This document shows positions 31,040-64,000 of a DNA stretch of 64,000 nt, one piece after another. Source of the DNA: a virus; the IMG/VR virus record IMGVR_UViG_3300025759_000082, positions 1 through 64,000 of that record; one strand, 5' to 3'. The position numbers and the translations under genes are program-made. Position 1 is the first letter of the stretch. Each line of letters opens with the position of its first letter. Under the pieces are notes generated by a model that saw only the letters and a list, made by a program, of their open reading frames with translations, did no database searches and was not told where the DNA came from.

Positions 31040-31474
31040 TAAAATTATTTTGCTCTGAGGGTGTACATGTGAAACAAGATGCACTATATTCAGTCCTATC
31101 GAGTGGCTGAGCTGATCCGTACTGAGCGCGATACCTCCGTCGAAAGAGGACTTCGCCCAGTGATCCGCCGAGGAGTCTAGAGAACGTAGGCCTCTAGAAG
31201 CTCTGACCATTCGCTGATCCCCCATAATCTAGAGTCTTGGGCCGGGGGCCGAGCTGTATCCAATTCTGGATACTAAAACGCGCGCGCCAGCCCGGAGAAA
31301 CGACCAAGAAACCACGGTCCAGCGCGCGCGAGTGTAATCGGTGGGAGTCTCAGGGGGGAGGAGGTCCGGAGTTCCGATCACCCTTACAATATAACATAAG
31401 AAGATTCGAAAGTACAATTCTTTTTTTCGAGTCGGTGAAAATGACCGACGCTTGGCATTGATCATAAAATTTCC

Positions 31475-31560
31475 CGGGTGGTCCAGTGTAATTGTCCACA
31501 CCAAAGGCCCCGGATGTTTAATAGGGATGCCACCGTTTTCCACTAAATGGTACTTGAAGG
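31475..31560 (+). repeat. Repeat element A
   Basis: About 70 bases from 31491 align without gaps to 55441 onwards (element B) at about 74%. The inner dyad has changed on both sides: TATCA/TGATA in B, TGCCA/TGGTA in A. Non-coding, no gene on its strand downstream. Confidence 0.65.
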
Positions 31561-31603
31561 TGGTCATTTGACCACGAGAGACACCCACCAAAGTCATCCG
31601 AAT

Positions 31604-31636
31604 ACTACAACGCCTGCAGGAGTTACCCTACAGGCG
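31604..31636 (-). terminator. Terminator after the 32041-31664 gene
   Basis: Minus strand stem CGCCTGTAGG-GTAACT-CCTGCAGGCG (10 bp, one G-U), followed by TTGTAGTATT, 28 bases after the stop. The sequence after the stem resembles that at 51077-51106. Confidence 0.75.
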
Positions 31637-42086: not shown

Positions 42087-42200
42087 TTCTCTGATCCTCG
42101 CCACGGAACCTCATCAGTACCTGCATACGTGGCCTATCAAGTAGACGCACAAGCGGGCGGACTCACTCCAGATAGGGTGTCCCGCTTGCACGTTTCGGCG

Positions 42201-50098: not shown

Positions 50099-50130
50099 AG
50101 TGGTTTCTCCTAGATTGTTGGTACCACACT

Positions 50131-50165
50131 ATTATATCACGAGAAAATGGAGTCGGTAATCTCGG
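50131..50165 (-). promoter_or_regulatory. Class I promoter for the 50098-47832 operon
   Basis: Minus strand CCGAGATT, 18 bases, perfect TGATATAAT; A/T-rich UP-like tract (AATAAATTATCC) upstream. Confidence 0.85.
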
Positions 50166-51076
50166 TTTTACGGCCATGGATAATTTATTTTACCTGCAAT
50201 TTCCGAGCCCAGAATCTAGTATTGAAATATTCGGTTATCACCATATTATTAGCAGTCCGGGCATGTGTGGACTATTGGTCTTGCTCATCCGGCCGGGGTC
50301 GGGCGGCTTAAGTGATTGATCTGGTTTATACAACCGACGACCTAGGGTTTTGTGGAATGAGTCGGGGGTCGGGGGCCGGATGGACAATATAAGAGCAGTA
50401 CACCGTTGACATAAAAATACCTATAACCCTAAGGTTACCATAGTAACATGGTATTCTTATATCCACTTATCATAGTAAATTATAGAGGGTCGACATGACA
50501 CCAGAGTGTTGGGACTGTATTATTCATCTGTCTTAAGCTTAAAAAGATATAAGAAAGTATACTAAGTTCAGACCGAGAGGGTAAAACTTGTTTAATCCGA
50601 TCAATAGGTTAAGTACAGGACAGACAAGTCCTCATGCTTACACTGCCGGTCTTGACACTCCCGGAAGGATTGTCTCTTCTTGCCCCCGCCGTCCGGATTT
50701 GCCTCGCCAGTGACACTGTTGTCACTTCGGTGTCCCATAGATGGCCGGATGTTAGTGCGACATCCAATTTTCAAAGTGCCGCTGTTTCCAGCTACCGGCC
50801 CCAGGACCTCACCCCGTAAAAATCGCCTCGCTACCAGCCAATCCTGGTCAGAATGCGGCAGAACTTGGTCAACTTTGGGAAATCCGGGGATCGCGGCCCT
50901 CGGTCCACCCCTCGTCATGCCCGGCCCCAGGCCCGAGCACGGCTGCGAGTGGATAGTGGAGCAAAGACCGCGAAACTTGGGCTAGGTGCAGTGAGCCGAG
51001 ACCTGCTATCGTCTGACAGTGCTACGAAGACACCCACATTGGGCAAGGCAGGGCACGGCAAGACAGAATACGACAA
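50166..51076. other. Longest non-coding region; candidate origin
   Basis: No credible gene on either strand. 50380-50640 is strongly A/T-rich, with a perfect TTGACA (50406-50411, + strand), GTTAC-CATA-GTAAC (50434-50447) nested in ATACC/GGTAT, and the palindrome TTAAGCTTAA (50533-50542). AGTGAC/GTCACT lies at 50710-50727. The rest is GC-rich and featureless. A/T-rich DNA with nested dyads in a GC-rich genome suits a replication origin or phage control region; no perfect DnaA box is seen. Confidence 0.45.
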
Positions 51077-51106
51077 CGCGCCTGGGGGAGAGAGAACCCA
51101 GGCGCG
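51077..51106 (-). terminator. Terminator of the 52074-51143 operon
   Basis: Perfect 10-bp stem CGCGCCTGGG/CCCAGGCGCG around ten bases, then (minus strand) TTGTCGTATTCTG, closely like the sequence after the stem at 31604-31636. Confidence 0.7.
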
Positions 51107-51507: not shown

Positions 51508-51582
51508 GGTCATCTCTCCTTGGTCTCATCAGCTGCCGCATTACGGCAGGACGCGGCCGACCGTAGCCAGCCGCGTTTCGAC

Positions 51583-52074
51583 CTACTCCTCGCCGTCGTC
51601 GCCGTCTTCATCAGCCTCGGGCGGCGCCGTGTAGCCCTCGACGTGCGTCAGGCCGAACTCTTCCATCTTCTTGCGGTAGTAGGCGAAGAGGGAAGCCGGT
51701 GCGATCCGCGACACGACGTAGGAGTCGGCGATCGCATGTTCCTGGATGAACGGCCCGGTGTACGCGATGCCCGGTTCCATCTTGTCGCGCATCCAGAAGA
51801 GGGTGCGCTGGGCCTGGTTGGGCAGCTTGCCGATGCTCTTGTCCTTGACCGCCGCGTCGAACACCTCGCGGTTCAGAGCGTAGAACTTCCGACGCCACGG
51901 GACGTTCCCGCTTCGGCCGACCCGCCGGATGGGCTGGGGGATCATGAGACCGTTGTCGGCCTGGACGCGCTCGACGCCGAGATCATCGACCACCTTGGTC
52001 GGGGCCGGCGGCGTCTCCATGACGACGGGAGGGGTGGCAATCATCGCTTTGCGGTTCTGATTTCGGGATGCCAT
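51583..52074 (-). CDS. Hypothetical protein, ordinary-composition paralogue
   Basis: 163 residues behind GAAGGAGAAAC. Core 'RSGNVPWRRKFYALNREVFD', 'VKDKSIGKLP', 'LFAYYRKKMEEFGLTHVE' is shared with the gene at 54535-54933. Ala-rich, normal phage codon use, disordered N-terminus and acidic C-terminus. Function unknown. Confidence 0.7.
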   Translation of the reverse strand: MASRNQNRKAMIATPPVVMETPPAPTKVVDDLGVERVQADNGLMIPQPIRRVGRSGNVPWRRKFYALNREVFDAAVKDKSIGKLPNQAQRTLFWMRDKMEPGIAYTGPFIQEHAIADSYVVSRIAPASLFAYYRKKMEEFGLTHVEGYTAPPEADEDGDDGEE

Positions 52075-52125
52075 GGTCGTGTTTCTCCTTCGTTGAACCA
52101 GATCACCAATTGATCTGATAGGTAC

Positions 52126-52375: not shown

Positions 52376-52452
52376 TGTTCTCTCTCCTAAGCTCATCAGC
52401 ATGGGCCTCACCCATGGACGCGGTGTCGCCGCAGCACCGCGTTTCGCTTTGG

Positions 52453-52806: not shown

Positions 52807-52883
52807 TGTTCTCTCCTTGATCTCATCAGTGCGGAACCAATCCGCAGACGCGGTGCCACGAAGACACCGCGTTTCGATCTGTT

Positions 52884-53471: not shown

Positions 53472-53550
53472 TGGTCGTCTCTCCTTGGTCTCATCAGCGT
53501 GGACCTCATCCACGGACGCGGTGCCACGAAGACACCGCGTTTCGACCTGC

Positions 53551-53880
53551 TTAGATCATATCTTCCGGCTTGCGCAGGTCGGGTATCCACGTGGCCTTTT
53601 CATCGTCCTTGCCCGACCAGCAGGCGAGCGGCCCCTTGCACGTGACCAGCAGGTGGCTGCCGTCGCCCATGAGGAAGCTTCCGTAGACTCCGGCTCCTCG
53701 TGGCTCACCGAGCTCGTCCGAGAGACGGTCGGCCGGGATGTACTTGTGGGTGCCGAAACCCTTGTGGTCGAACACATCCACGTAGCCGCCTCTCAGCGCA
53801 GTCGACTCCATCCCTGCCGGGTCCTTGAATGTCGTGGCGCAGTGCGCCTTGACGTACATACCTGCGATCTTGGCGTACAC
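53551..53880 (-). CDS. Hypothetical beta-rich protein
   Basis: 109 residues, GTG behind ACCAAGGAGAGACGACC. 'VDVFDHKGFGTHKYIPADRL' and 'GSHLLVTCKGPLACW'. Unknown. Confidence 0.55.
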   Translation of the reverse strand: MYAKIAGMYVKAHCATTFKDPAGMESTALRGGYVDVFDHKGFGTHKYIPADRLSDELGEPRGAGVYGSFLMGDGSHLLVTCKGPLACWSGKDDEKATWIPDLRKPEDMI

Positions 53881-53954
53881 GGTCGTCTCTCCTTGGTCTC
53901 GTCAGCGTGGACCTCATCCACGGACGAGGGAGGTTTCCCTCCCTCGTTTCGACC

Positions 53955-54122
53955 TTAGTCGTCGACCCCGACCTCTTCCTTGATGTCCTCGAGGAAGTCG
54001 ACCGTCTCCTGGAGGAGGGTACGGGTCGGTCCGTGTTCCTCCCTCTTCACCTCGTTCTTCACCGACTCGAGGAGACGTCCGTGGTGGAGTTGGATCAAAC
54101 CACACAGTTCTTCCATCGTCAT
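53955..54122 (-). CDS. 55-residue alanine-free protein
   Basis: ATG behind GAACCAAGGAGAGTAC (12-base match to the candidate RNA). 'MEELCGLIQLHHGRLLESVKNEVKREE', then an acidic end. Has no alanine, as its DNA lacks GpC. Unknown. Confidence 0.6.
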   Translation of the reverse strand: MTMEELCGLIQLHHGRLLESVKNEVKREEHGPTRTLLQETVDFLEDIKEEVGVDD

Positions 54123-54153
54123 TGTACTCTCCTTGGTTCGTGTTAACCCTTAC

Positions 54154-54215
54154 ATCATATCACATTTCAGGTTTGTGGTACACCCCGGTTTCGAAATTAT
54201 TTTACCGGGGTGTAC
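54154..54215 (-). promoter_or_regulatory. Class I promoter on a perfect inverted repeat
   Basis: Minus strand CCGGGGTG, 18 bases, TGATATGAT (54154-54188). GTACACCCCGGT (54178-54189) and ACCGGGGTGTAC (54204-54215) form a perfect 12-bp dyad around an A/T loop. Confidence 0.8.
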
Positions 54216-54225
54216 CGTGACCCGC

Positions 54226-54429
54226 TCAGTCCCGACCGAAGCACTCCCGCGTCTGCCAGTAGTACAGGGCCGCCGAGTCCTGCCACGTTCTGGCCTCCGC
54301 CTCCCAGAAGGCCCGGTTGTCCGGGTCCGTGGCCTCGAGGGCCTGGTCCAGCGCGTGGCGGGCATAGGCCGACTCACGGGCGTCGTGGCGTTGAAGGACC
54401 GTGGCTCGGTCGTGCTCGTATGTGGTCAT
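54226..54429 (-). CDS. Small Ala/Arg-rich helical protein
   Basis: 67 residues behind CCAGGAGAG. 'ARESAYARHALDQALEA' type helix. Ordinary GpC content, between the two GpC-free tracts. Unknown. Confidence 0.6.
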   Translation of the reverse strand: MTTYEHDRATVLQRHDARESAYARHALDQALEATDPDNRAFWEAEARTWQDSAALYYWQTRECFGRD

Positions 54430-54485
54430 GGCTTCTCTCTCCTGGACTCATCAGCACGGGCTCGACCCGTGGACGCGGCGGACCG

Positions 54486-55178
54486 CGTTTCGTCCTCAGG
54501 GAAGAGGGGGAGGGGATTTCCCTCCCCCCGATCCTCATTCCTCCTCTTCGTCCGTGATCCCGAGGATCATCGTGGGATCATATTCCACGTGGATCAATCC
54601 GAATTCCTCCATCTTCTTCCGATAATACGCGAAGAGGACGGGGGGATCGATTTTGGATCGGACGTATCCCTCCTCGATCGATCGGGATTGGATCATCGAT
54701 CCCGTTCCCATCTCTCCCTCCTTCATCCGATCATACATCCACATTAACGTGGATTGTCCCTGAGGAGGAAGAATTCCGATGGATTTATCCTTGACGGATT
54801 CCTCATATTTCTTCCGATCGAGGGAATAGAATTTCTTCCTCCACGGAACATTCCCCGATTTATTCCCCCGACGGACGATCCGAGAGGAAACATCCATGAT
54901 ATCCCGATCGATATTCTTCTCAATTTTTTTCATCTTCTCTCTCCTTGATGATCGGATATTCATTCATCCGATAGATATGAATATATATCGTTGGGAGGGA
55001 AAAGAAACCCCTTTCGGGATAAAAATCCCCCCAAAAAATCATGAAAAAGGGGAGGAAATCTCTCTTCTGGAGGAAAATTCTCATAAAAGTGAGATTTTTG
55101 GAGGGATTTTCTGATAAATGATTGATTATTGGTGGGAATCTCTCCAAATGGATCGTTTTTTGGAGAAAAAATTCTACT
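54486..55178. other. GpC-depleted, GATC-rich tract 2
   Basis: 693 bp with a single GpC (54629-54630), spanning a gene and about 245 bases of non-coding DNA. Sixteen GATC sites between 54530 and 54953, eleven of them in 170 bases; about two would be expected by chance. Boundaries are abrupt: normal GpC-rich DNA resumes at 55179. Confidence 0.85.
54535..54933 (-). CDS. GpC-depleted paralogue of the 51583-52074 protein
   Basis: 132 residues behind CAAGGAGAGAAG. 'SGNVPWRKKFYSLDRKK', 'VKDKSIGILPP', 'LFAYYRKKMEEFGLIHVE' match the paralogue. It has one alanine against about 18 in the paralogue: YAL has become YSL, DAA has become EES. Codons favour GGA, GAT, TCC, ATC and CGG. Function unknown. Confidence 0.75.
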   Translation of the reverse strand: MKKIEKNIDRDIMDVSSRIVRRGNKSGNVPWRKKFYSLDRKKYEESVKDKSIGILPPQGQSTLMWMYDRMKEGEMGTGSMIQSRSIEEGYVRSKIDPPVLFAYYRKKMEEFGLIHVEYDPTMILGITDEEEE

Positions 55179-55420
55179 GCAGGGCCCCTGGGGCCGCGGG
55201 ACAGTTGTGAGTCCGTGCCCCGGGTACTTTTCGAACTCTGCATGAATTTAACAATATATGTACACGGCCCCCGGCCCTGGGCCAACCACCCTCAGCCCAC
55301 TGCCCTAGGCCCTCAGCCCATAAAACGCGGCCAACAAACATCGCAAAAAGCTCATTCACATCTCGGCCCTCACCCAAAGCCTCGGGGAGCCCGGGGCAAT
55401 TTTCAAAGCCTTCGGGTAAT
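55179..55420. other. Non-coding GC-rich region with short repeats
   Basis: GGCC/GGGCCC-rich, includes the 13-mer GGGCCGGGGGCCG on the minus strand (55265-55277) and two direct CCTCAGCCCA copies near 55290 and 55312. No gene. Confidence 0.5.
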
Positions 55421-55510
55421 TATCCGGTCGACATAGTGTAATTGTCTACACCATTGACACCGGATGTTAACGAGGGATATCACCGATCTCCACTAAGTGA
55501 TATTCGGGGT
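55421..55510 (+). repeat. Repeat element B
   Basis: See element A. It contains a perfect ATATCAC/GTGATAT dyad around 13 bases and an imperfect GTGTAATTGTCTACAC dyad. It lies just 3' of the HNH gene. Confidence 0.65.
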
Positions 55511-55521
55511 ATATAGGCCTA

Positions 55522-56019
55522 TCACTTTGACCCTTGGTCCATCTTGCTCAATTCTTGGACCGAGGGCAGGGCTTTCCAGGTCTTTCCGTAGTATGCATTT
55601 CTAATAGCCCGGATCGAGGCCCCAAGCCCAAGAAACTTCTTAAAGTCTCCAGTACGTCTGAGCTCGATCACTGTTTCACGGGTGAATTCGTATTTGTAGT
55701 GTGGCTTGCCTGCGAGACTAGTGCCGTGGGCCTGCTTATCCTGCATATTCTCTTTATGGGTTTTCCAACTTACATGTCTCTTGTTTACGCAAGCCGATTG
55801 TCCGCAACTGTGAGCCACTTCATGATCAGGACTTGGCTTAGACCCTACGTACTCCAAGCATACAGCAACGTGAGCAAGTATCTGTCTTCCTTCATAGATT
55901 ACAAAACCAGGATACCCTTCTCTTAGAGTAAACGGCCAGATCAAGCACTCATCAGACTCATGCTTCGATACTACGTTCTTGACGAAGGCCAAACCCTCAC
56001 CTTTAGCTGCTCTACGCAT
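55522..56019 (-). CDS. HNH endonuclease
   Basis: 165 residues. 'HEVAHSCGQSACVNKRHVSWKTHKENMQDKQAHGT' is the HNH core (H, C-x4-C, N, H, T-x-x-E-N-x-x-D), with a C-terminal helix-turn-helix-like end ('SIRAIRNAYYG'). Alone with its own promoter beside the terminase: a likely homing gene. Confidence 0.85.
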   Translation of the reverse strand: MRRAAKGEGLAFVKNVVSKHESDECLIWPFTLREGYPGFVIYEGRQILAHVAVCLEYVGSKPSPDHEVAHSCGQSACVNKRHVSWKTHKENMQDKQAHGTSLAGKPHYKYEFTRETVIELRRTGDFKKFLGLGASIRAIRNAYYGKTWKALPSVQELSKMDQGSK

Positions 56020-56045
56020 AGTGTTCTCCTATTTTCGGTAATCCT

Positions 56046-56075
56046 ATTGTATTACGCTAAAAATAGGACGTACAA
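56046..56075 (-). promoter_or_regulatory. Promoter of the HNH gene
   Basis: Minus strand TTGTAC, 18 bases, TACAAT, the same hexamers as 2855-2884. Divergent from the terminase promoter 24 bases away. Confidence 0.65.
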
Positions 56076-56098
56076 CCCTATTTTACGTAAAAAAGAAC

Positions 56099-56127
56099 TT
56101 TACTTGCGGTCCAATATGTGATAGACT
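56099..56127 (+). promoter_or_regulatory. Class II promoter for the terminase operon
   Basis: TTTACT, 17 bases, TAGACT with TGTGA before it. Transcribes the small terminase and following genes. Confidence 0.6.
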
Positions 56128-56154
56128 TGAACCAACACCAGCAAAGGCCTTTTC

Positions 56155-56709
56155 ATGGGCGACCAGACGGTATTCATCTCTGGCCCTGCCTCACCCCATG
56201 CTCCTACGCGTGGGAATACCGAGCTGAACCGTATTGGCAATTACAACTATGCGGAAGAACGCCTCAAGAAACTGAACCATGACGCTCTCTACCTGGAAGA
56301 ACAGGAGAAGCAGCGTGTGATGGAACTCTGCTTGAGCTTCATCGCTCAAGGTAAAACCGTATCCGCAGTGGTCAAGGAGCTGCGTGCGCAGTTTCACTGG
56401 TTCTCACCAGGGTATCTGTACAAGTGGCGGACGGAAGATGCTGACTTCTGCCAGGCATGGGATGAAGCCTATGCTGCAGGTACGGATATGCTGGAAGACA
56501 AGGCGATTGATCTCGCGTTGGAAGGCAATGCGTCGCTTCTGCAGTTCCTGTTGAAGTCGCGTAACATTGAGCGGTACGGTACGACTCGTGTGGAAAACAC
56601 GGGTAAGGATGGCCGCGATTTGATCCCATCAAGCATCCAGGTCCGTGTGCTTCCCCGTGGTCAGTCCATCGCTGACGTCAAGGAACCAACCAATGATACG
56701 GAATCGTGA
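56155..56709 (+). CDS. terS: Small terminase subunit
   Basis: 184 residues. N-terminal HTH region ('VSAVVKELRAQFHWFSPGYLYKWRTED') and 'FCQAWDEAYAAGTDMLEDKAIDLALEGN' plus 'LLQFLLKSRNIERYG', a typical end of small terminases. Recognises the packaging site and recruits the large subunit encoded downstream. Confidence 0.82.
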   Translation: MGDQTVFISGPASPHAPTRGNTELNRIGNYNYAEERLKKLNHDALYLEEQEKQRVMELCLSFIAQGKTVSAVVKELRAQFHWFSPGYLYKWRTEDADFCQAWDEAYAAGTDMLEDKAIDLALEGNASLLQFLLKSRNIERYGTTRVENTGKDGRDLIPSSIQVRVLPRGQSIADVKEPTNDTES

Positions 56710-56718
56710 GGACTCATC

Positions 56719-57033
56719 ATGGTAACTGCTAATTGCATACCTCCGTGCGATCCAAATGATCCCGTCGCACTGCCTTCGAATACTCCATCTCCGTTTGCAA
56801 TCTTTTCTGGGCCGCCTGCATCGTCGTTCATTGCACCAGTCGTTAAGGCTGATGCTGATCTTCCGGATGGCTTGGCAAAAGGTTTGCTTGTTGGCACCGC
56901 CGGCACAATAACCCTGATGGACGAAAGCGGGAACATTCATGTCGATGTCCCGATACAGCAAGGTTATAACTACATCTCAGTGCGCCAGGTTCGGCTTGGA
57001 GGTACCGCCGACAACATCTGGGCATTGTACTGA
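56719..57033 (+). CDS. Small probable structural protein
   Basis: 104 residues. 'GTAGTITLMDESGNIHVDVPIQQGYNYISVRQVRLGGT' is a beta motif I associate with small phage virion proteins. Pro/Ser-rich N-terminus. Confidence 0.6.
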   Translation: MVTANCIPPCDPNDPVALPSNTPSPFAIFSGPPASSFIAPVVKADADLPDGLAKGLLVGTAGTITLMDESGNIHVDVPIQQGYNYISVRQVRLGGTADNIWALY

Positions 57034-57114
57034 TTTATGAGGGAAGAATAGCAGACGAACATATGGGGATTGCGCTTGGGGGCGCGATTAACCGAAATCA
57101 CCATAGGTGCTGCT

Positions 57115-57240
57115 ATGTATACTCAAACTTCGACGCTTCAGACGAAACTCGATCATCTGGCGACAAATAAGTTTATGCGCATACTCGGTTGCGATACCGT
57201 ATTCTTTTTGTCGATAGCGCTACTTTTTATGAGTTTTTGA
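57115..57240 (+). CDS. 41-residue membrane protein
   Basis: One C-terminal TM ('VFFLSIALLFMSF'). The ATG is behind AGGTG; the stop overlaps the next start (TGATG). Confidence 0.5.
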   Translation: MYTQTSTLQTKLDHLATNKFMRILGCDTVFFLSIALLFMSF

Positions 57241-57794
57241 TGATCCATTTCGTGAAGAAGAATGTCAGACTGCTACAAGCAACTGCAGCGGTGGTAGCTA
57301 TCCTTGCTGCCTTTTGGAGTTTCGCAGGCCCGGTCTACAAGAATTCGACTCGTAAGAAGCCTATCGAGAATACTTTTCTGATCCCTACGCTTCACAGGTT
57401 TGAGGCGCTGCAGATTATTCGCCAGCTTGGCGGACCAAACGATCCGATAGTGAAGCCTGAACTTTTTGAAGCATCCACAGAATGGCCGAGAGGCCGCGAT
57501 GGCGCAGTTTTGGTTTTCTATACAAAGAACCACGACGAATGTGTGTTGATCAAATCGGGTGTGCAGATCATCAACGACGATGGCCTGGTCATTCCGATCG
57601 TGCAAAACGAAGTCAACAGCATCAAGGCACCTGTCGGATACAACGTGACTGTAATTCCGGTTATCGTTCCAAGTTACACTCCACTTGGAGAATACAAAAT
57701 CGTTCTTACCGCGACCTATAGCTGCGGAATATGGATCGAAGATATCGAGTTCAACAGACCCACCCTTATGGTCACGGAGGAAACTGTTGAGTGA
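57240..57794 (+). CDS. Membrane-anchored protein
   Basis: 184 residues. TM near the N-terminus ('ATAAVVAILAAFWSFAGPVY'), then a beta-rich periplasmic domain ('NVTVIPVIVPSYTPLGEYKIVLTATYSC'). Unknown; in a membrane-gene cluster that may hold the missing holin. Confidence 0.6.
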   Translation: MIHFVKKNVRLLQATAAVVAILAAFWSFAGPVYKNSTRKKPIENTFLIPTLHRFEALQIIRQLGGPNDPIVKPELFEASTEWPRGRDGAVLVFYTKNHDECVLIKSGVQIINDDGLVIPIVQNEVNSIKAPVGYNVTVIPVIVPSYTPLGEYKIVLTATYSCGIWIEDIEFNRPTLMVTEETVE

Positions 57795-57888
57795 AATCAT
57801 ACTCGATTCTAACAATTTCGCCAAGCTCATCATCATAGCTGTGATCGCTGGAGGACTACTCGCTACGTGGATTATTGGGAGAACGTGA
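57787..57888 (+). CDS. 33-residue TM peptide
   Basis: TTG start overlapping the previous stop; TM 'LIIIAVIAGGLLATWIIG'. The stop overlaps the next ATG (TGATG). Confidence 0.5.
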   Translation: MSEIILDSNNFAKLIIIAVIAGGLLATWIIGRT

Positions 57889-58226
57889 TGAAGCACAACA
57901 GCGCTCCGTTTCGCGAGTATGCTGGAGCGATGGTCGCCGTGATGATCGTTCTGTCTTACGTCGTCTCCGGCTTCGTCATCGTTATCTGTGGCGTTCTTCT
58001 TGGCGTCGACGTGAAGTTCCCAGGTGACTGGAACGCAGCAATGCTGTCGCTATCTTCAGCATCCCTGGGCTATCTTATCGGAAAACAGGTCGATCCAAAG
58101 CCTACCAATGTGCCAGTCTCAGCTGATTTTCCTGAATACGCAGCAGAACGGGAATATCAGCATACGGAGAAAAACAATGCAAAACCCTTTCAAGTACCGC
58201 CCGCAGGACCCAGCGATCGGGGATGA
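57888..58226 (+). CDS. Two-TM protein, holin candidate
   Basis: 112 residues. TM1 'VAVMIVLSYVVSGFVIVICGVLLG', TM2-like 'AAMLSLSSASLGYLIG', polar C-terminus. The endolysin has no signal peptide and no holin lies beside it, so this or the next gene may serve. Confidence 0.55.
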   Translation: MKHNSAPFREYAGAMVAVMIVLSYVVSGFVIVICGVLLGVDVKFPGDWNAAMLSLSSASLGYLIGKQVDPKPTNVPVSADFPEYAAEREYQHTEKNNAKPFQVPPAGPSDRG

Positions 58227-58452
58227 TACGGAGCCTGATTTCTGGGAAGATAATTGGCTGTCGAACTTCATGGCCGCCGCTTCCCAGGTCGTGACTCCCA
58301 ACTGGTGTGAAACCGAAGAACACTGGACGTCCAAGGTTACGGAGTATCTGTTCACCACCTGCCCGTGCTGCTTGATCTGGCGCGGACTGTTTCTGGGTTT
58401 CATTTCCGGGTCCTTGATCACCACCTTGGTTAGCTGGGTCATTTTTCGCTAG
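58177..58452 (+). CDS. Small protein with C-terminal TM
   Basis: 91 residues. TM 'LFLGFISGSLITTLVSWVIF' at the end, and C-P-C-C just before it. Overlaps the preceding gene by 50 bases in another frame, an arrangement seen in lysis gene pairs. Confidence 0.5.
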   Translation: MQNPFKYRPQDPAIGDDTEPDFWEDNWLSNFMAAASQVVTPNWCETEEHWTSKVTEYLFTTCPCCLIWRGLFLGFISGSLITTLVSWVIFR

Positions 58453-58465
58453 GGCAAATAAGTAC

Positions 58466-58494
58466 TTTACTTGTTGGTCCTAGCGTGCTATTAT
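58466..58494 (+). promoter_or_regulatory. Class II promoter for the head operon
   Basis: TTTACT, 17 bases, TATTAT, 35 bases before the next ATG. Confidence 0.7.
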
Positions 58495-58528
58495 GGCCTA
58501 GAAGGTCGAAATCGATTAGGAGGCAGAG

Positions 58529-58729
58529 ATGGGTTGCGGTTGTGGAAAGAGCAGTTTCAGCTCTCCCAGGAACGGTGCTCGTACGTCGGCAATGCCTAAT
58601 ACTCGGACCGCGCAGGGTCCAGTCACTTCCACGGCGTCCACGAGTTACGGCACGATGTCGGTCGTTCGTTCGATGGGCGTTTCCGGCTCGGGCGTCAACC
58701 AGTCGCCGGTGACACGCCGCCAGGTCTAA
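58529..58729 (+). CDS. Small Ser/Thr-rich protein
   Basis: 66 residues behind TAGGAGG. Starts MGCGCGKS, then Ser/Thr/Pro-rich and disordered. Unknown, directly before terL. Confidence 0.6.
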   Translation: MGCGCGKSSFSSPRNGARTSAMPNTRTAQGPVTSTASTSYGTMSVVRSMGVSGSGVNQSPVTRRQV

Positions 58730-58732
58730 ACC

Positions 58733-59965
58733 ATGGTACCCGCTGCAGCACCGGGTCCTGGTGAAGTTGTATTCTCGGAGAAGTACGCTCGCCTCTTCGA
58801 GAAAGCCCGCTACAAGGCATACTACGGTGGCCGAGGCGGAGGTAAATCTCACGCGATTGCGATGGCAATTGCTCTGATTTGCGCTAACAAAGAGACGCGT
58901 GTGGTTTGCGCGCGTCAGTTTCAGAATTCAATCAAGGACTCCGTGAAGGAGTTGCTTGAGCAGAAAATCAAAGCTCTTGGACTCGAATCCATCTTCGAGT
59001 TCCTTCGGACTGAGATTGTTTGTAAGAAAAACGGAAGTCGCATTACTTTCACTGGTCTGGACCGTAACCCAGACTCAGTGAAGTCGTTGGAAGGCGCAGA
59101 TATCTGCTGGATCGAGGAAGCGAGGAACGTTTCCCAGAAGGCGTTGGACCTGCTCATTCCAACTATTCGTAAGCCTGGCTCGGAAATCTGGTGTTCCTGG
59201 AACCCAGTTAATCCGGATGATCCGATCGACGAGTACTTCAGAGGGCCGTTCCCGCCTGAAGATGCTATCATTGAGGAAGTTTCTTTCGAGGACAACCCGT
59301 GGTTCTGGATCACGGAAATGCCCGCCGAAATGGAACTGATGAAGAAGAAGGATAAGCAGCGGTACGAGCATATCTGGTTGGGTCATTACGATCAGCAGGT
59401 TGAAGCTCGTATCTTCAAGAATTGGCGTATTGATCGCATAAAGATTTCTGATTCTGAAACGCCAAGGTTTGGCATGGACTTCGGATTTCAGAATGATCCG
59501 AATGCTCTGATCAAAATGTACATTCTGGAAGAAGAGAAGATCATTTATATCGCGGCGGAGGCAGTCGCCCCGAAATTGCCCATCGATCAGCTTCCTGCTC
59601 TGATGGGTACAGTATCAGAGTCCCGGCTGTTCACCATCATGGCGGACAGTTCCAGACCAGAGACGATTGACTACCTGAATGGCCATGGCTATCAGGTATT
59701 GGCAGCTAAGAAAGGTCCAGGTTCTGTTCGTGAGGGCATTACCTGGTTGCAGGGATATGAGATCGTCATCGACCCAGAGTGTGTGGTCACGGCGAACGAA
59801 ATTCGGCTTTATTCATGGAAGACGGAGCAGCCTTCAGGTAAGATACTTCCGATTCCTGAAGATGAAGATAACCACTGTATCGACGCAATCCGTTATGGTA
59901 GTGAGCCGGTTCGGACAGGCGGTGTGAAGATACGTAGGTTCAAAATGTTAGGTCGCCGTCGATGA
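58733..59965 (+). CDS. terL: Large terminase subunit
   Basis: 410 residues. Walker A 'GGRGGGKSHA', Walker B 'ICWIEEARN', coupling 'SWNPVNPDDP'. Nuclease acidic residues in 'FGMDFGFQNDP', 'MADSSRPETIDYL' and 'DNHCIDAIRYG'. Terminase_3 (PBSX-like) family. Cuts and packages DNA into the prohead. Confidence 0.95.
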   Translation: MVPAAAPGPGEVVFSEKYARLFEKARYKAYYGGRGGGKSHAIAMAIALICANKETRVVCARQFQNSIKDSVKELLEQKIKALGLESIFEFLRTEIVCKKNGSRITFTGLDRNPDSVKSLEGADICWIEEARNVSQKALDLLIPTIRKPGSEIWCSWNPVNPDDPIDEYFRGPFPPEDAIIEEVSFEDNPWFWITEMPAEMELMKKKDKQRYEHIWLGHYDQQVEARIFKNWRIDRIKISDSETPRFGMDFGFQNDPNALIKMYILEEEKIIYIAAEAVAPKLPIDQLPALMGTVSESRLFTIMADSSRPETIDYLNGHGYQVLAAKKGPGSVREGITWLQGYEIVIDPECVVTANEIRLYSWKTEQPSGKILPIPEDEDNHCIDAIRYGSEPVRTGGVKIRRFKMLGRRR

Positions 59966-61263
59966 GAATTGGCAGCTTTGAGCTGAAGCGCAGAAGGAAG
60001 ACGGACCGTAATCCTACGGATGATCCGACTCGTCTCCTTTCGACTTCGCTCGGACGGCAAACGATCAAGGGAATTTCGTACACACAGTCCCTTGCTGCAG
60101 AACAGGCAATGATACACCCAGTGGTGTTTCGTTGCATCGATAAGATCGCCACGTCTGTCGCAGCCGTCGACTGGTATGTGCGTAAGAAAGAAGGAACTGG
60201 CCGCGACAAGGCCTTGACTTCCAAGATTTCCGATGTTCTTGAAAGCCCGAATGGATACATGACGGCTGGTGAGCTTCGGTACTGGCTTGCAATGACCCGC
60301 GCTGTGTTCGGCCGCGTACCGTTCAAGGTAGGTGTGGGTACAGAAGGAAAGCCGAATGCTTTGTACCCACTCAAAGCATCGTTCTTTGAAACAGTGTTGA
60401 CGGATCGCGGTCTGATCAAACACTACAAATATGGTACTGCTTCGAACCACGAAATTCTGTCAACGCGTGAAAACGCAACTGACGGCACCAATGGTCAAGG
60501 ACGGATGACCAAGTCCTATGCTTGGGAGATCATCAAGCCGAACTTGTCCGGTTCTCCGACGGCAAAAGGGTTCAATACTCCGCTCGATGCAATCGGATAT
60601 CCTGCTGAGATCATCGCTCTGCTTCTGAAGCGGGCAATTGACTCTGCCGCTGGTCAGCCGAATTCGAAGTACATTGTTGGGTCGGAAAAGACTCTGACTG
60701 AAGACCAGGAGAAGTTTATCCAAGACTTTTTGGAAGATACGACTCCTGGGGGAGACGAGGGCGGCGCTGTTCTCGTGATCTCGAACACCAAGATCGATGT
60801 TCATGAACTGGACAACAATCTAAGTGACATCCATTCGAAGCTTCCGATGGATGATATGGCCCGCCACATCGCGGGTTCCTTTGGCATTCCGATCTCGCTC
60901 TTGGGCTTGAGCGCGCAAGACGGTGCCAAATTTGCCGGCAACTATCTCGAAAGTCGTCGGTCTTTCTGGGAAGATACGATCATCCCAGGTTATCTCGTAC
61001 CGATCCAGCAGGGTCTTTCCCAGGCTCTCTGTGACGAAGGTCACGAGATCGTCTTCGATCTGGACACCATCCCGGCTCTCGAAGAAGTAAAAGCTGACCG
61101 CGCCGTGAAGCTCAACAAGGTCGAATTCTTGACCGAGGATGAGAAACGGCAAATGTGCGGTTTCCCACCCCTGACGCCTGAGCAGAAGGCAGCACTGCGG
61201 GCGCAGAATGCGAGCAGGAAGCCCAACTCGCAGGCCAGCACGGAACCCAACAACGATGGATAG
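59962..61263 (+). CDS. Portal protein, HK97 family
   Basis: 433 residues, ATGA overlap with terL. 'EQAMIHPVVFRCIDKIATSVAAVDWYV', 'HIAGSFGIPISLLGL', 'AGNYLESRRSFWEDTIIP' and a charged C-terminal tail match Phage_portal. Forms the dodecameric DNA gate. Confidence 0.92.
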   Translation: MRIGSFELKRRRKTDRNPTDDPTRLLSTSLGRQTIKGISYTQSLAAEQAMIHPVVFRCIDKIATSVAAVDWYVRKKEGTGRDKALTSKISDVLESPNGYMTAGELRYWLAMTRAVFGRVPFKVGVGTEGKPNALYPLKASFFETVLTDRGLIKHYKYGTASNHEILSTRENATDGTNGQGRMTKSYAWEIIKPNLSGSPTAKGFNTPLDAIGYPAEIIALLLKRAIDSAAGQPNSKYIVGSEKTLTEDQEKFIQDFLEDTTPGGDEGGAVLVISNTKIDVHELDNNLSDIHSKLPMDDMARHIAGSFGIPISLLGLSAQDGAKFAGNYLESRRSFWEDTIIPGYLVPIQQGLSQALCDEGHEIVFDLDTIPALEEVKADRAVKLNKVEFLTEDEKRQMCGFPPLTPEQKAALRAQNASRKPNSQASTEPNNDG

Positions 61264-62071
61264 GGCCATGAACCTCTACCTCACGAAGAACGCCAAGCGC
61301 CCGCTGGTGAGGAAAGAACATCCGAACTTCGCGATGATGAAGTTCATGCCGGCGAACGATACCGAGCTGAAAGCTCTCGGCGAAGACCTCCCGGATGGCT
61401 ACATCGCAGGCTGGGCGTCCACGCCGGACCTCGACTCCTACCGTCACGTCGTCCAGAAGGGTGCGTTCGACGATGCCATTTCAGCCAAGGGCTTGTCTGG
61501 ACCGAAGTCCATCAAGCTCTTGATCGGTCACGACTGGAACAAGGTCGCTGGCGTCATCAAGGTTCTCGAGACCCGCGGCGAACGCCTCTGGATCGAGGCC
61601 GAACTCAATCTCAATATCAGCTACGTGCGCGACGCGTACGAAGCTTCGAAGATGGCTGGCGGCCTGAATTTCTCCGTCGGCTTCTCCCTCCAGGACTACG
61701 AGTTCAAGGAGGACAGCTCTGGCTTCGAATACCTTCTCATCAAGAAGGGCGATCTGTTCGAAGTCTCTGTGGTTCCGTTCCCCGGCAACGAGGAATGCAC
61801 CATGGATTTCGTGAAGAATTCCCAGCCCGGACCCGCGACTACGGTGGCGGACTTCGAGAAACTCCTCGTTGCACGTGGGCTGGTCAAGAGCAGGAATGAT
61901 GCCCGCAGCATCACTCAGGAGGTGAAGTCTGCGCTGCATATATTCCAAAAGGGGCCGGGAACAGCTCCTGCAGCACCCCCGGCCCCCGATACACAGCCCG
62001 TGTTGGCTGCCGATCAACTGAAGACTCTGTCGAACATGGTCGCCGAACTGAAGACCATGCTCACTCGTTGA
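61256..62071 (+). CDS. Prohead protease (HK97 S78 family)
   Basis: 271 residues from the ATG overlapping the portal stop; 61268 is an alternative. 'GYIAGWASTPDLDSYRHVVQKGAF', 'LLIGHDWNKVAGVI' (catalytic His), 'GLNFSVGFSL' (Ser). The C-terminal Ala/Pro linker and helix may act as a scaffold. Confidence 0.88.
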   Translation: MDRAMNLYLTKNAKRPLVRKEHPNFAMMKFMPANDTELKALGEDLPDGYIAGWASTPDLDSYRHVVQKGAFDDAISAKGLSGPKSIKLLIGHDWNKVAGVIKVLETRGERLWIEAELNLNISYVRDAYEASKMAGGLNFSVGFSLQDYEFKEDSSGFEYLLIKKGDLFEVSVVPFPGNEECTMDFVKNSQPGPATTVADFEKLLVARGLVKSRNDARSITQEVKSALHIFQKGPGTAPAAPPAPDTQPVLAADQLKTLSNMVAELKTMLTR

Positions 62072-62107
62072 GTGAGTCGGCAGTCCAACAAACGGAAGGA
62101 TGAAACC

Positions 62108-63568
62108 GTGACGAAACTGGCACTGATGGGCGCTGCCGCCCTGCTGGCGTACCCCGGCATGTATATCACGAAGGACGCCCCGCCGGCCGAGGCCTCGGTC
62201 GAGGCTCTGTCGAAGGAGCTGAGCGAGGTCACCCAGCTGCTGAAGACGGCGAAGGATACCGCCGACCAGCACTACAAGGACCTCCACAACCACTACAATG
62301 GGGTCAAGTCCGACAACGAGGACCTGAAGAAGACCGTCGAACAGCACGCGAAGGAATACGCCGAACTCACGGCGCTGACCCAGCAGCTGACCTCGACCGT
62401 CGACATGGTCAAGAAGCAGCTCGACGCGCCGATCAACAAGGGCGGCTCCGAGCTCGCCGACGTCGACCGGAAGAACGCGATCGAACTGCAGCGCCGGCTT
62501 TTCATCAGCAAGGGCGGTGAACCGAAGGAGTTCAAGGCGGACCTGGACAACCTGGTCGACATGAACGTCTATCGCCGCGTCGCCCAGAAGATGACGGCCA
62601 TCGGTCTCGAGACGCCGGAGCGCGTGATCCGCTCGTTCGACGAGTCGGAGAAGAAGGCCTTCGAAGCCGCCGGCCTCGACAACGCCTTCTTCATGCCGGA
62701 ACTGCTCGGCCTGGAGATCGACTGCAACGTCGAATGCGGATACCTGCTCGACATGTACGGCCAGGTGTCGGTCACGAAGTCGTCCTATCTCTACCCGCGG
62801 GTCGAGTCCTACGGCGATATCGGCAAGTACGACTGCGACGCCAAGTGCGACGCCGAATACGGTCCGGAAGGGAACATTCGCTGGCTCAACGGCCAGACGT
62901 ACGACTGGCGCGGCGTGTTCTGCCTGAACAAGAAGGTGCTCGCCGAGTCGAACTACGACTTCCTCGACTTCATGATCCGCTCGATCCAGCGTTCCTACCG
63001 CATCAACCGGAACCGTGCGCTCATCGTCGGCGACGGCGTCAACGAGCCCCAGGGCTGGCTGACGGCCGACTGCTTCAAGCGGATTTCGACGCCGCAGCGT
63101 GTTCTGAGCGAAGGTGGTTCGGCTGCGCCGAGCTTCAACCACGTCGACTTCCGTCGCTTCCTGTCGACGGCGCCGATCGAGTACGGCCAGGTCCTCGCGA
63201 CCATGCACCAGAACATGTTCGCCTACCTGGCGGCATCGACGGACAACAACGGCCGCTTCATCTTCGGCGACGGCGAAATGACCTTCTCGCCGGATGATAC
63301 GCGCGAGCGCATCCGCATCTCGAACTGTCTCCCGGATGCCACGGAAGACAATACCCGCGGTTCCGCCGCCAATCCGTTCGTGCCCGGCGCCTTCCTCGCT
63401 GCCGCTGCGAACTGGGACATGGCCTACAAGGCCGTCAACAAGAAACCGATGTTCATGGAGCAGTACATCGGCGGTTCGTCGGCCTGGTGCGTCAAGTACC
63501 AGTTCGGTGCGGAAGACGGCTCCTTCATCGGCTGCTGCGAAGCAGGCCGCGTCCTCGAGGTCGGCTAA
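62108..63568 (+). CDS. Major capsid protein, HK97 fold
   Basis: 486 residues from the GTG behind GGAAGGA; a GTG at 62072 is less likely. Residues ~30-110 are a coiled-coil delta domain likely removed by the protease. The mature part has N-arm, E-loop and 'FDFMIRSI'-type spine features ('YDFLDFMIRSIQRSYRINRN', 'GDGVNEPQGW'). About 11 Cys, several in C-N-V-E-C and C-D-A-K-C-D pairs. Confidence 0.9.
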   Translation: MTKLALMGAAALLAYPGMYITKDAPPAEASVEALSKELSEVTQLLKTAKDTADQHYKDLHNHYNGVKSDNEDLKKTVEQHAKEYAELTALTQQLTSTVDMVKKQLDAPINKGGSELADVDRKNAIELQRRLFISKGGEPKEFKADLDNLVDMNVYRRVAQKMTAIGLETPERVIRSFDESEKKAFEAAGLDNAFFMPELLGLEIDCNVECGYLLDMYGQVSVTKSSYLYPRVESYGDIGKYDCDAKCDAEYGPEGNIRWLNGQTYDWRGVFCLNKKVLAESNYDFLDFMIRSIQRSYRINRNRALIVGDGVNEPQGWLTADCFKRISTPQRVLSEGGSAAPSFNHVDFRRFLSTAPIEYGQVLATMHQNMFAYLAASTDNNGRFIFGDGEMTFSPDDTRERIRISNCLPDATEDNTRGSAANPFVPGAFLAAAANWDMAYKAVNKKPMFMEQYIGGSSAWCVKYQFGAEDGSFIGCCEAGRVLEVG

Positions 63569-63592
63569 TCCCAGCCGGCTGAAACGTAACCG

Positions 63593-63612
63593 CTTAGGCC
63601 ATCCGGCCTAGG
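63593..63612 (+). other. Hairpin between capsid and decoration genes
   Basis: CTTAGGCC-ATCC-GGCCTAGG, 8 bp with one G-U, 24 bases after the capsid stop. No U run; likely mRNA stabiliser. Confidence 0.55.
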
Positions 63613-63632
63613 CATTCAGAAGGAAAGAGAGT

Positions 63633-64000
63633 ATGCAGAACAATCCTGCAATCTCGACGACCGGCCTGGTGGCGTGGGATGGGACGACGGCTCGTACGCT
63701 GCCGATCTACAACCACATCCAGTTTGGCTGGACGTTCGAGGTCAAGACGACCCTGGCGGCCGACGCGATCTTCCGTTTCCAGGCGGCTCCCGGCTCGGAC
63801 GCCGATCACTGCGTTCCGGGCGATCTCGCTCCCGTCGAAGCAATCCCGACCTGCGTCGGCGAGGTCATCGCCGATGGCACTCCGGCCGAGATCGTGATCC
63901 CGTCGGGTACCGAAGCCGGCTCCTTCTGTTCGGTGGCTCTGCCCTGCCGTAACGGACGGTTCGTCGCTCTGCAGCATATTTCCGGCGGCGAAAACGTCAA
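63633..64000 (+). CDS. Probable head decoration protein, partial
   Basis: At least 122 residues, open at the window end; ATG behind GGAAAGAGAG. Beta-rich ('YNHIQFGWTFEVKTTLAADAIFRF', 'SFCSVALPCRNGRFVAL'). It follows the capsid gene, where decoration proteins are usual. Three or more Cys. Confidence 0.65.
   Translation, partial: MQNNPAISTTGLVAWDGTTARTLPIYNHIQFGWTFEVKTTLAADAIFRFQAAPGSDADHCVPGDLAPVEAIPTCVGEVIADGTPAEIVIPSGTEAGSFCSVALPCRNGRFVALQHISGGENV

Follow-up and report, generated by a model that had tools for sequence, protein, structure and literature searches.

An uncultured tailed phage carries a 317-bp tract (tract 2) from which the dinucleotide GpC is completely absent, and this tract appears to be the leading segment of one unit in an array of small genes separated by predicted hammerhead ribozymes. 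Our leading explanation is that tract 2 was purged of GpC by local selection within the phage lineage, most likely at the RNA level, and we give it a probability of roughly one in three. The window referred to below is the whole 64,000-nt stretch of DNA that was analysed, which belongs to a 67,412-bp (67.4-kb) uncultured tailed-phage virus contig.

GpC is absent from a 317-bp tract

Two neighbouring stretches of the window are free, or nearly free, of GpC.

54486..55178, unstranded: GpC-poor tract 1; 1 GpC, with ApC/GpT also depleted (0.34)
53907..54223, unstranded: GpC-free tract 2; 0 GpC against 23 expected, null minimum 7

An earlier note on this DNA had described tract 2 as having no GpC over its 317 bp, and the count confirmed it: the tract contains 76 G and 96 C, so that 23.1 GpC are expected, and the flanking GpCs start at 53905 and 54224. 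CpG occurred at a normal level (24), and ApC/GpT was in excess (1.40). The minimum GpC count among 5,000 mononucleotide shuffles of the tract was 12. As a null set, we used all 317-bp windows with at least 50% G+C from other viral loci (44,160 overlapping, ~2,786 independent). The smallest GpC count in these ~2,786 independent windows was 7, in loci that were chosen for their hammerheads or terminase and are not a random viral sample.

Among the GpC-free runs of the window, the run at 54630-55179 was the longest and tract 2 the second longest. When runs were ranked by expected GpC, the two tracts came out on top (25.1 and 23.4); with the rest of tract 1 set aside, they were followed by a (CCCCTGGACCGA)n repeat and an ETPTEE-type stretch at 64636-64779. 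The next-best GpC-free runs (64636-64779 of the record, and one in locus L108) are low-complexity sequence, and a search of tract 2 for a tandem repeat found none. Within the window, only tract 1 matches tract 2, and the segment between the two tracts (54224-54485) is not depleted, as it holds 26 GpC; on both points the earlier note stands.

Both the coding and the non-coding parts of tract 2 lack GpC

The tract contains one small gene with its predicted promoter and a hairpin, and an Ala-rich gene lies between it and tract 1.

53955..54122, minus strand: g55, gene for a 55-aa acidic protein (14 D/E, 6 K/R) with no Ala; predicted two-helix hairpin
54153..54162, minus strand: TGATATGATG, extended -10 promoter predicted for unit 2; conserved in all three copies, by consensus only
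54177..54216, minus strand: perfect 13-bp terminator-like hairpin immediately behind the stop codon of the gene before it; belongs to a covarying set of three
54226..54429, minus strand: g67mid, Ala-rich, situated between the two tracts; GpC at an ordinary level (20 against 22.2)

The small alanine-less gene of the earlier note was recovered (0 Ala against 4.9 expected in the g55 protein), and the promoter assigned to it is a prediction from consensus. The Ala-rich gene with ordinary GpC was found as described; g67mid encodes 67 aa, of which 12 are Ala. Given the g55 protein and the codon usage of the phage, 9.0 GpC are expected in the coding sequence and none was present (z -4.4). Shuffling of the synonymous codons of g55 left a mean of 4.9 GpC, with 0 reached in only 0.04% of shuffles (p 0.0004), and G|C codon junctions numbered 0 against 6.0 expected. 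GpC was likewise missing from the non-coding DNA (0 of 5.1 expected upstream of g55 and 0 of 4.6 after its stop), indicating that it is absent in every codon phase and outside the gene as well.

These results bear on whether chance, protein composition or low complexity could have produced the tract, which we regard as scarcely credible. Ala-poor proteins do reduce GpC, and two other long GpC-free runs are low-complexity; however, z was -4.4 with the protein taken into account, the absence extends to non-coding DNA, none of the ~2,786 null windows is comparable, and tract 2 has no tandem repeat. We therefore rejected this explanation on the shuffles, the codon-aware expectation and the null windows.

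Apart from GpC, the dinucleotides of g55 are near the expectation from phage codon usage (among the others, ApC deviates most, z +3.2), and for this reason the gene does not look foreign. The structure model of its protein (pLDDT 90) is a plain helical hairpin of two acidic helices, for which no significant viral structural match was found; as modelled, the fold is too generic to suggest a function. Searches of domain, defence and structure libraries with the tract genes gave no matches, and no homologues of g55, g142/g163 or g109 were found in IMG/VR, GenBank phages, or bacterial and archaeal genomes.

The tracts lie in an array of small genes and predicted hammerheads

The terminase of the phage is nearest to those of Agrobacterium phages 7-7-1, OLIVR4 and Milano and Synechococcus phages Ssp-JY38 and Yong-L2-223 (46-49% identity), and a primase search of IMG/VR for closer relatives yielded none. 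Late genes run rightward from 56155 and early genes leftward from ~55 kb, and small genes, most of them orphans, form a leftward array at 51.2-55.2 kb. The array divides into four units, in which promoters and termination are predicted.

Unit 1: promoter, g142, HHR6, g67mid, hairpin
Unit 2: promoter, g55, HHR5, g109, HHR4, g90, hairpin
Unit 3: promoter, g67, HHR3, g117, HHR2, g68, hairpin
Unit 4: promoter, g163, HHR1, g84

Six sequences that fit type II hammerhead ribozymes separate the genes.

51525..51580, minus strand: HHR1, type II hammerhead; core and covariation
52392..52446, minus strand: HHR2, type II hammerhead; core and covariation
52822..52876, minus strand: HHR3, type II hammerhead; core and covariation, sub-threshold Rfam match
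53490..53544, minus strand: HHR4, type II hammerhead; repeat 96% identical to HHR5 over 49 nt
53898..53951, minus strand: HHR5, type II hammerhead; predicted cleavage between 53923 and 53922, stem III C-G to A-U
54447..54492, minus strand: HHR6, type II hammerhead, between g142 and g67mid; predicted cleavage at 54472
53551..53880, minus strand: g109, gene after HHR5; ordinary GpC (31 against 25.4)

The core CUGANGAG plus CGAAA with an NUH cleavage site was present in all six copies. Stems I and III are loop-closed and stem II is open, and 98.2% of the cells in the covariation analysis were paired. Two-sided changes were seen in 11 of 19 hammerhead pairs, and none of 500 shuffles was equally good. 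The type II assignment is based on these core sequences and the covariation, since no Rfam hammerhead model scored above gathering; the one sub-threshold hit, Hammerhead_3 for HHR3, reached 26.3 bits against a gathering score of 48.5, which is a database convention and not a structural requirement. Self-cleavage is predicted from sequence. A possible seventh hammerhead-like match with long stems was seen at 42110-42197 (minus strand), away from the array. Type II hammerhead arrays between small genes were also seen in other uncultured phages, with nine (L037, 2913-6754), eight (L046) and seven (L058) copies; there was no GpC depletion near these arrays. The flanks of 184 other viral hammerheads showed no depletion either (mean 1.07, minimum 0.56), which rules out GpC loss as a general trait of hammerhead arrays.

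A second repeat family, at 52123, 53118 and 54151, consists of a hairpin that immediately follows a stop codon and, behind it, a conserved TGATATnnTG promoter-like box. Other TGATAT promoter-like boxes had GpC ratios of 0.66-1.22 in the 300 bp downstream, against 0.13 for tract 2, and a general promoter-proximal rule was discarded. Elsewhere in the window, a 68-bp non-coding repeat was observed at 55435-55502 and 31485-31552 (79% identical), with an operator- or promoter-like inverted repeat, GTGTAATTGTCyACACC. Two long, apparently non-coding stretches, 50100-51100 and 31200-31620, have reduced GpC and GC-rich clusters and are perhaps structured or regulatory.

Judged from these elements, tract 2 would correspond to the segment of unit 2 from the hairpin and promoter to just past the predicted HHR5 cleavage site, and tract 1 to the equivalent stretch of unit 1, as far as stem III of HHR6. 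The GpC z values of the first genes were -5.5 for g142 (unit 1), -4.4 for g55 (unit 2), -1.8 for g67 (unit 3) and +2.4 for g163 (unit 4); those of the six genes behind the first ribozymes were ordinary (-1.0 to +2.1). The affected set is thus the first gene of the first two units and not every first gene.

Repeats at the limits of tract 2 have their GpCs replaced

Tract 2 starts inside a member of the hammerhead repeats and ends at the edge of the hairpin/promoter repeat family, and these repeats could have acted as recombination joints. In both families, the copy in tract 2 differs from its sisters at GpC. One stem III pair, C-G in the five sister hammerheads, is A-U in HHR5; this swap removes one GpC from each arm (two in total) and retains the helix. 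The hairpin element reads CCGGC in its two other copies and CCGGT in tract 2.

The same repeats make import worth weighing, namely that donor genomes lacking GpC supplied tracts 1 and 2 through recombination at the hammerhead and hairpin repeats. Consistent with import, the limits of the tracts lie in or at dispersed repeats, the two cassettes are unlike in G+C and other dinucleotides, and the tract genes have no homologue in the collections searched. However, the codon usage of g55 is native save for GpC, g142 is a paralogue of the array's own g163, the opposite ApC/GpT bias of the tracts would need two different GpC-free donors, and the other viral loci fetched contained no GpC-free stretch of such kind. 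On balance, we hold import to be possible but unlikely. The earlier note had suggested mosaic cassettes of different origin or different exposure to an avoiding force. The discrete cassettes held up, with limits at repeats. Different origin found no support for tract 2, which has codon usage that is phage-like apart from GpC and repeats of its own array with the GpCs replaced; different exposure is the better fit, as the effect is confined to the first genes of units 1 and 2.

A single contig covers both tracts. Another locus (L007, 1-8774) is 100% identical to 55227-64000 and starts 49 bp outside tract 1; perhaps the early array varies between strains.

Tract 1 differs from tract 2 in its other dinucleotides

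The leading gene of unit 1 has a paralogue in the same array.

54535..54963, minus strand: g142, first gene of unit 1; 1 Ala against 12.5 expected, paralogue of g163
51583..52074, minus strand: g163, first gene of unit 4; paralogue of g142, ordinary GpC (48 against 39.6)

The two genes share 53% identity, and g163 is GpC-rich. The lone GpC of tract 1 sits in the only Ala codon of g142, at a conserved Ala in LFAYYRKKMEEFGL; 12 of the 13 aligned alanines of g163 are lost in g142. At sites encoding the same amino acid, CGC of g163 corresponds to CGG or AGA in g142, GGC to GGA or GGG, and AGC to TCG or TCC. The z of -5.5 for g142 was obtained given its protein and phage codon usage; in codon usage or composition g142 deviates from the phage, in contrast to g55, which is native except for GpC. 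The structure model of the g142 protein is of low quality (pLDDT 58).

Tract 1 is low in both ApC and GpT (z -4.4 and -4.5) and has an ApT excess (1.64). Of its 311 cytosines, just 31 come after a purine (window mean ~47%) and 90% after a pyrimidine. The tract extends for ~170 bp more upstream of the putative -10, with 0 GpC against 5.4 expected. Two further observations concern this region: GATC occurs 17 times in tract 1 against 2.6 expected, and an HNH endonuclease gene (55522-56019, minus strand; PHROG 1872, E 5.5e-17) lies directly upstream.

Cytosine deamination in a GpC/RpC context could have stripped GpC from exposed segments as a local mutational process. The ApC/GpT excess of 1.40 in tract 2, together with the ApT excess and the post-pyrimidine cytosines of tract 1, gives the pattern that successive C-to-T changes at RpC should leave. 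The individual substitutions, however, are of other kinds: the changes in HHR5 stem III are C-to-A and G-to-T transversions, no same-amino-acid codon changed C-to-T (no CGC-CGT, GGC-GGT or AGC-AGT), and the Ala positions lost in g142 became S, E, M, D and others, not V/T. Moreover, the tracts have sharp limits and the gene between them is unaffected. Deamination is already disfavoured, and we rate it as quite improbable.

The opposite ApC/GpT bias of the tracts is the main obstacle to one single explanation; the tracts are shaped either by two forces or by one force in two stages.

Genome-wide site avoidance in the phage is strong and does not extend to GpC

RGATCY was found once in 51 kb against ~44 expected, at the sole site in the record (38831), and neither GGATCC nor AGATCT occurs in the whole record. 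GAWTC numbered 27 in the record against 115 expected. RGATCY was also nearly absent from those parts of the Agrobacterium phages 7-7-1, Milano and OLIVR4 that were analysed. The GpC odds over the whole genome were 0.94, that is, depletion of a GpC core was not seen genome-wide. Simple restriction of genomic DNA at GpC sites is disfavoured, because a GpC-core nuclease would deplete the whole genome and GpC there is normal while RGATCY is nearly absent.

A more restricted form is DNA-level selection on the leading segments, in which GpC sites would let a binding, modifying or cutting factor block first transcription. The early-expressed anti-restriction genes of phages and plasmids provide a functional analogy. 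The upstream non-coding DNA is likewise GpC-free, the ApC/GpT depletion of tract 1 is strand-symmetric, and the phage is under strong general site avoidance (RGATCY, GAWTC), all of which speak for such selection. Nevertheless, a GpC-site nuclease should have left the same genome-wide mark as for RGATCY, and GGCC, GCGC and TGCA are only mildly low. We consider this explanation unlikely.

Local purging at the RNA level is the preferred explanation

Local purging within the lineage is favoured over foreign import, low complexity, deamination and genome-wide restriction avoidance because GpC is gone in all codon phases and in non-coding DNA, because HHR5 carries a compensatory pair, and because codon usage is otherwise native. 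As to its cause, we ranked the RNA level first, since the purged stretches match predicted RNA units that run from a promoter to a hammerhead cut; import came second, DNA-level early expression third and deamination fourth. Under RNA-level purging, the RNA that precedes the first ribozyme of units 1 and 2 would have to be translated early in infection, while a GpC-directed activity, e.g. a host mRNA interferase with a GC-core site, may be operating. The hammerhead cut would then free a GpC-free message from the GpC-containing genes behind it. In keeping with this, the predicted 5' product of HHR5 is GpC-free, and the first GpC (53905) lies in the 3' product. A stronger version, in which the leading gene of each early unit is recoded GpC-free as a 'GpC-immune' first message, released by its hammerhead and expressed while a GpC-directed host defence destroys other messages, seems doubtful to us.

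Several results count against an RNA-level account. The purge spares units 3 and 4 (z of their first genes -1.8 and +2.4), and in tract 1 it runs ~170 bp upstream of the putative -10. The joint depletion of ApC and GpT in tract 1 suggests a double-strand-symmetric cause, and this symmetry argues for a DNA-level component. Weak RNA structure was rejected as the selected trait: the RNA of g55 is about as structured as expected from its codons (z +0.5), and that of g142 exceeds its codon shuffles in structure (z -4.8).

Comparison with known systems

The hammerhead array is of a known kind, and for the GpC purge we found no precedent; a literature search on GpC avoidance or GpC-free tracts in phages returned nothing relevant. 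Motif avoidance in phages is normally genome-wide and concerns motifs of restriction-site length, whereas here the loss of one dinucleotide is complete and limited to cassettes, at a cost in alanine and ribozyme base pairs. It points either to an unrecognised pressure on first-expressed phage genes or to a GpC-free DNA donor, and either would be new.

Restriction-site avoidance (Rusinov et al. 2018, PMC6286503) resembles the present case in that base and codon changes have removed a short motif almost completely, as for RGATCY and GAWTC in this phage. It differs in that the known cases concern recognition sites across the viral genome, whereas here a 2-bp motif is lost from two cassettes only and GpC is normal elsewhere. 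The toxin MqsR cuts only single-stranded GCU, and E. coli mRNAs without this site, e.g. ghoT, survive (PMC4905990). By analogy, a sequence-specific RNase would spare a message that lacks its cleavage motif; MqsR is, however, GCU-specific and not GpC-wide, so that the likeness is an analogy only.

Clustered hammerheads flank single small genes in (pro)phage operons, including ardA in an A. tumefaciens example; their proposed role is to divide long transcripts into mRNAs of gene length (Perreault et al. 2011, PMC3088659). The present array shares with them the type II architecture and the placement of several hammerheads around single small genes, and offers a clear case from a phage in which to ask what role such clusters play in operons. 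It differs in that six hammerheads lie in an uncultured tailed-phage record, where two of the inter-ribozyme segments are GpC-free.
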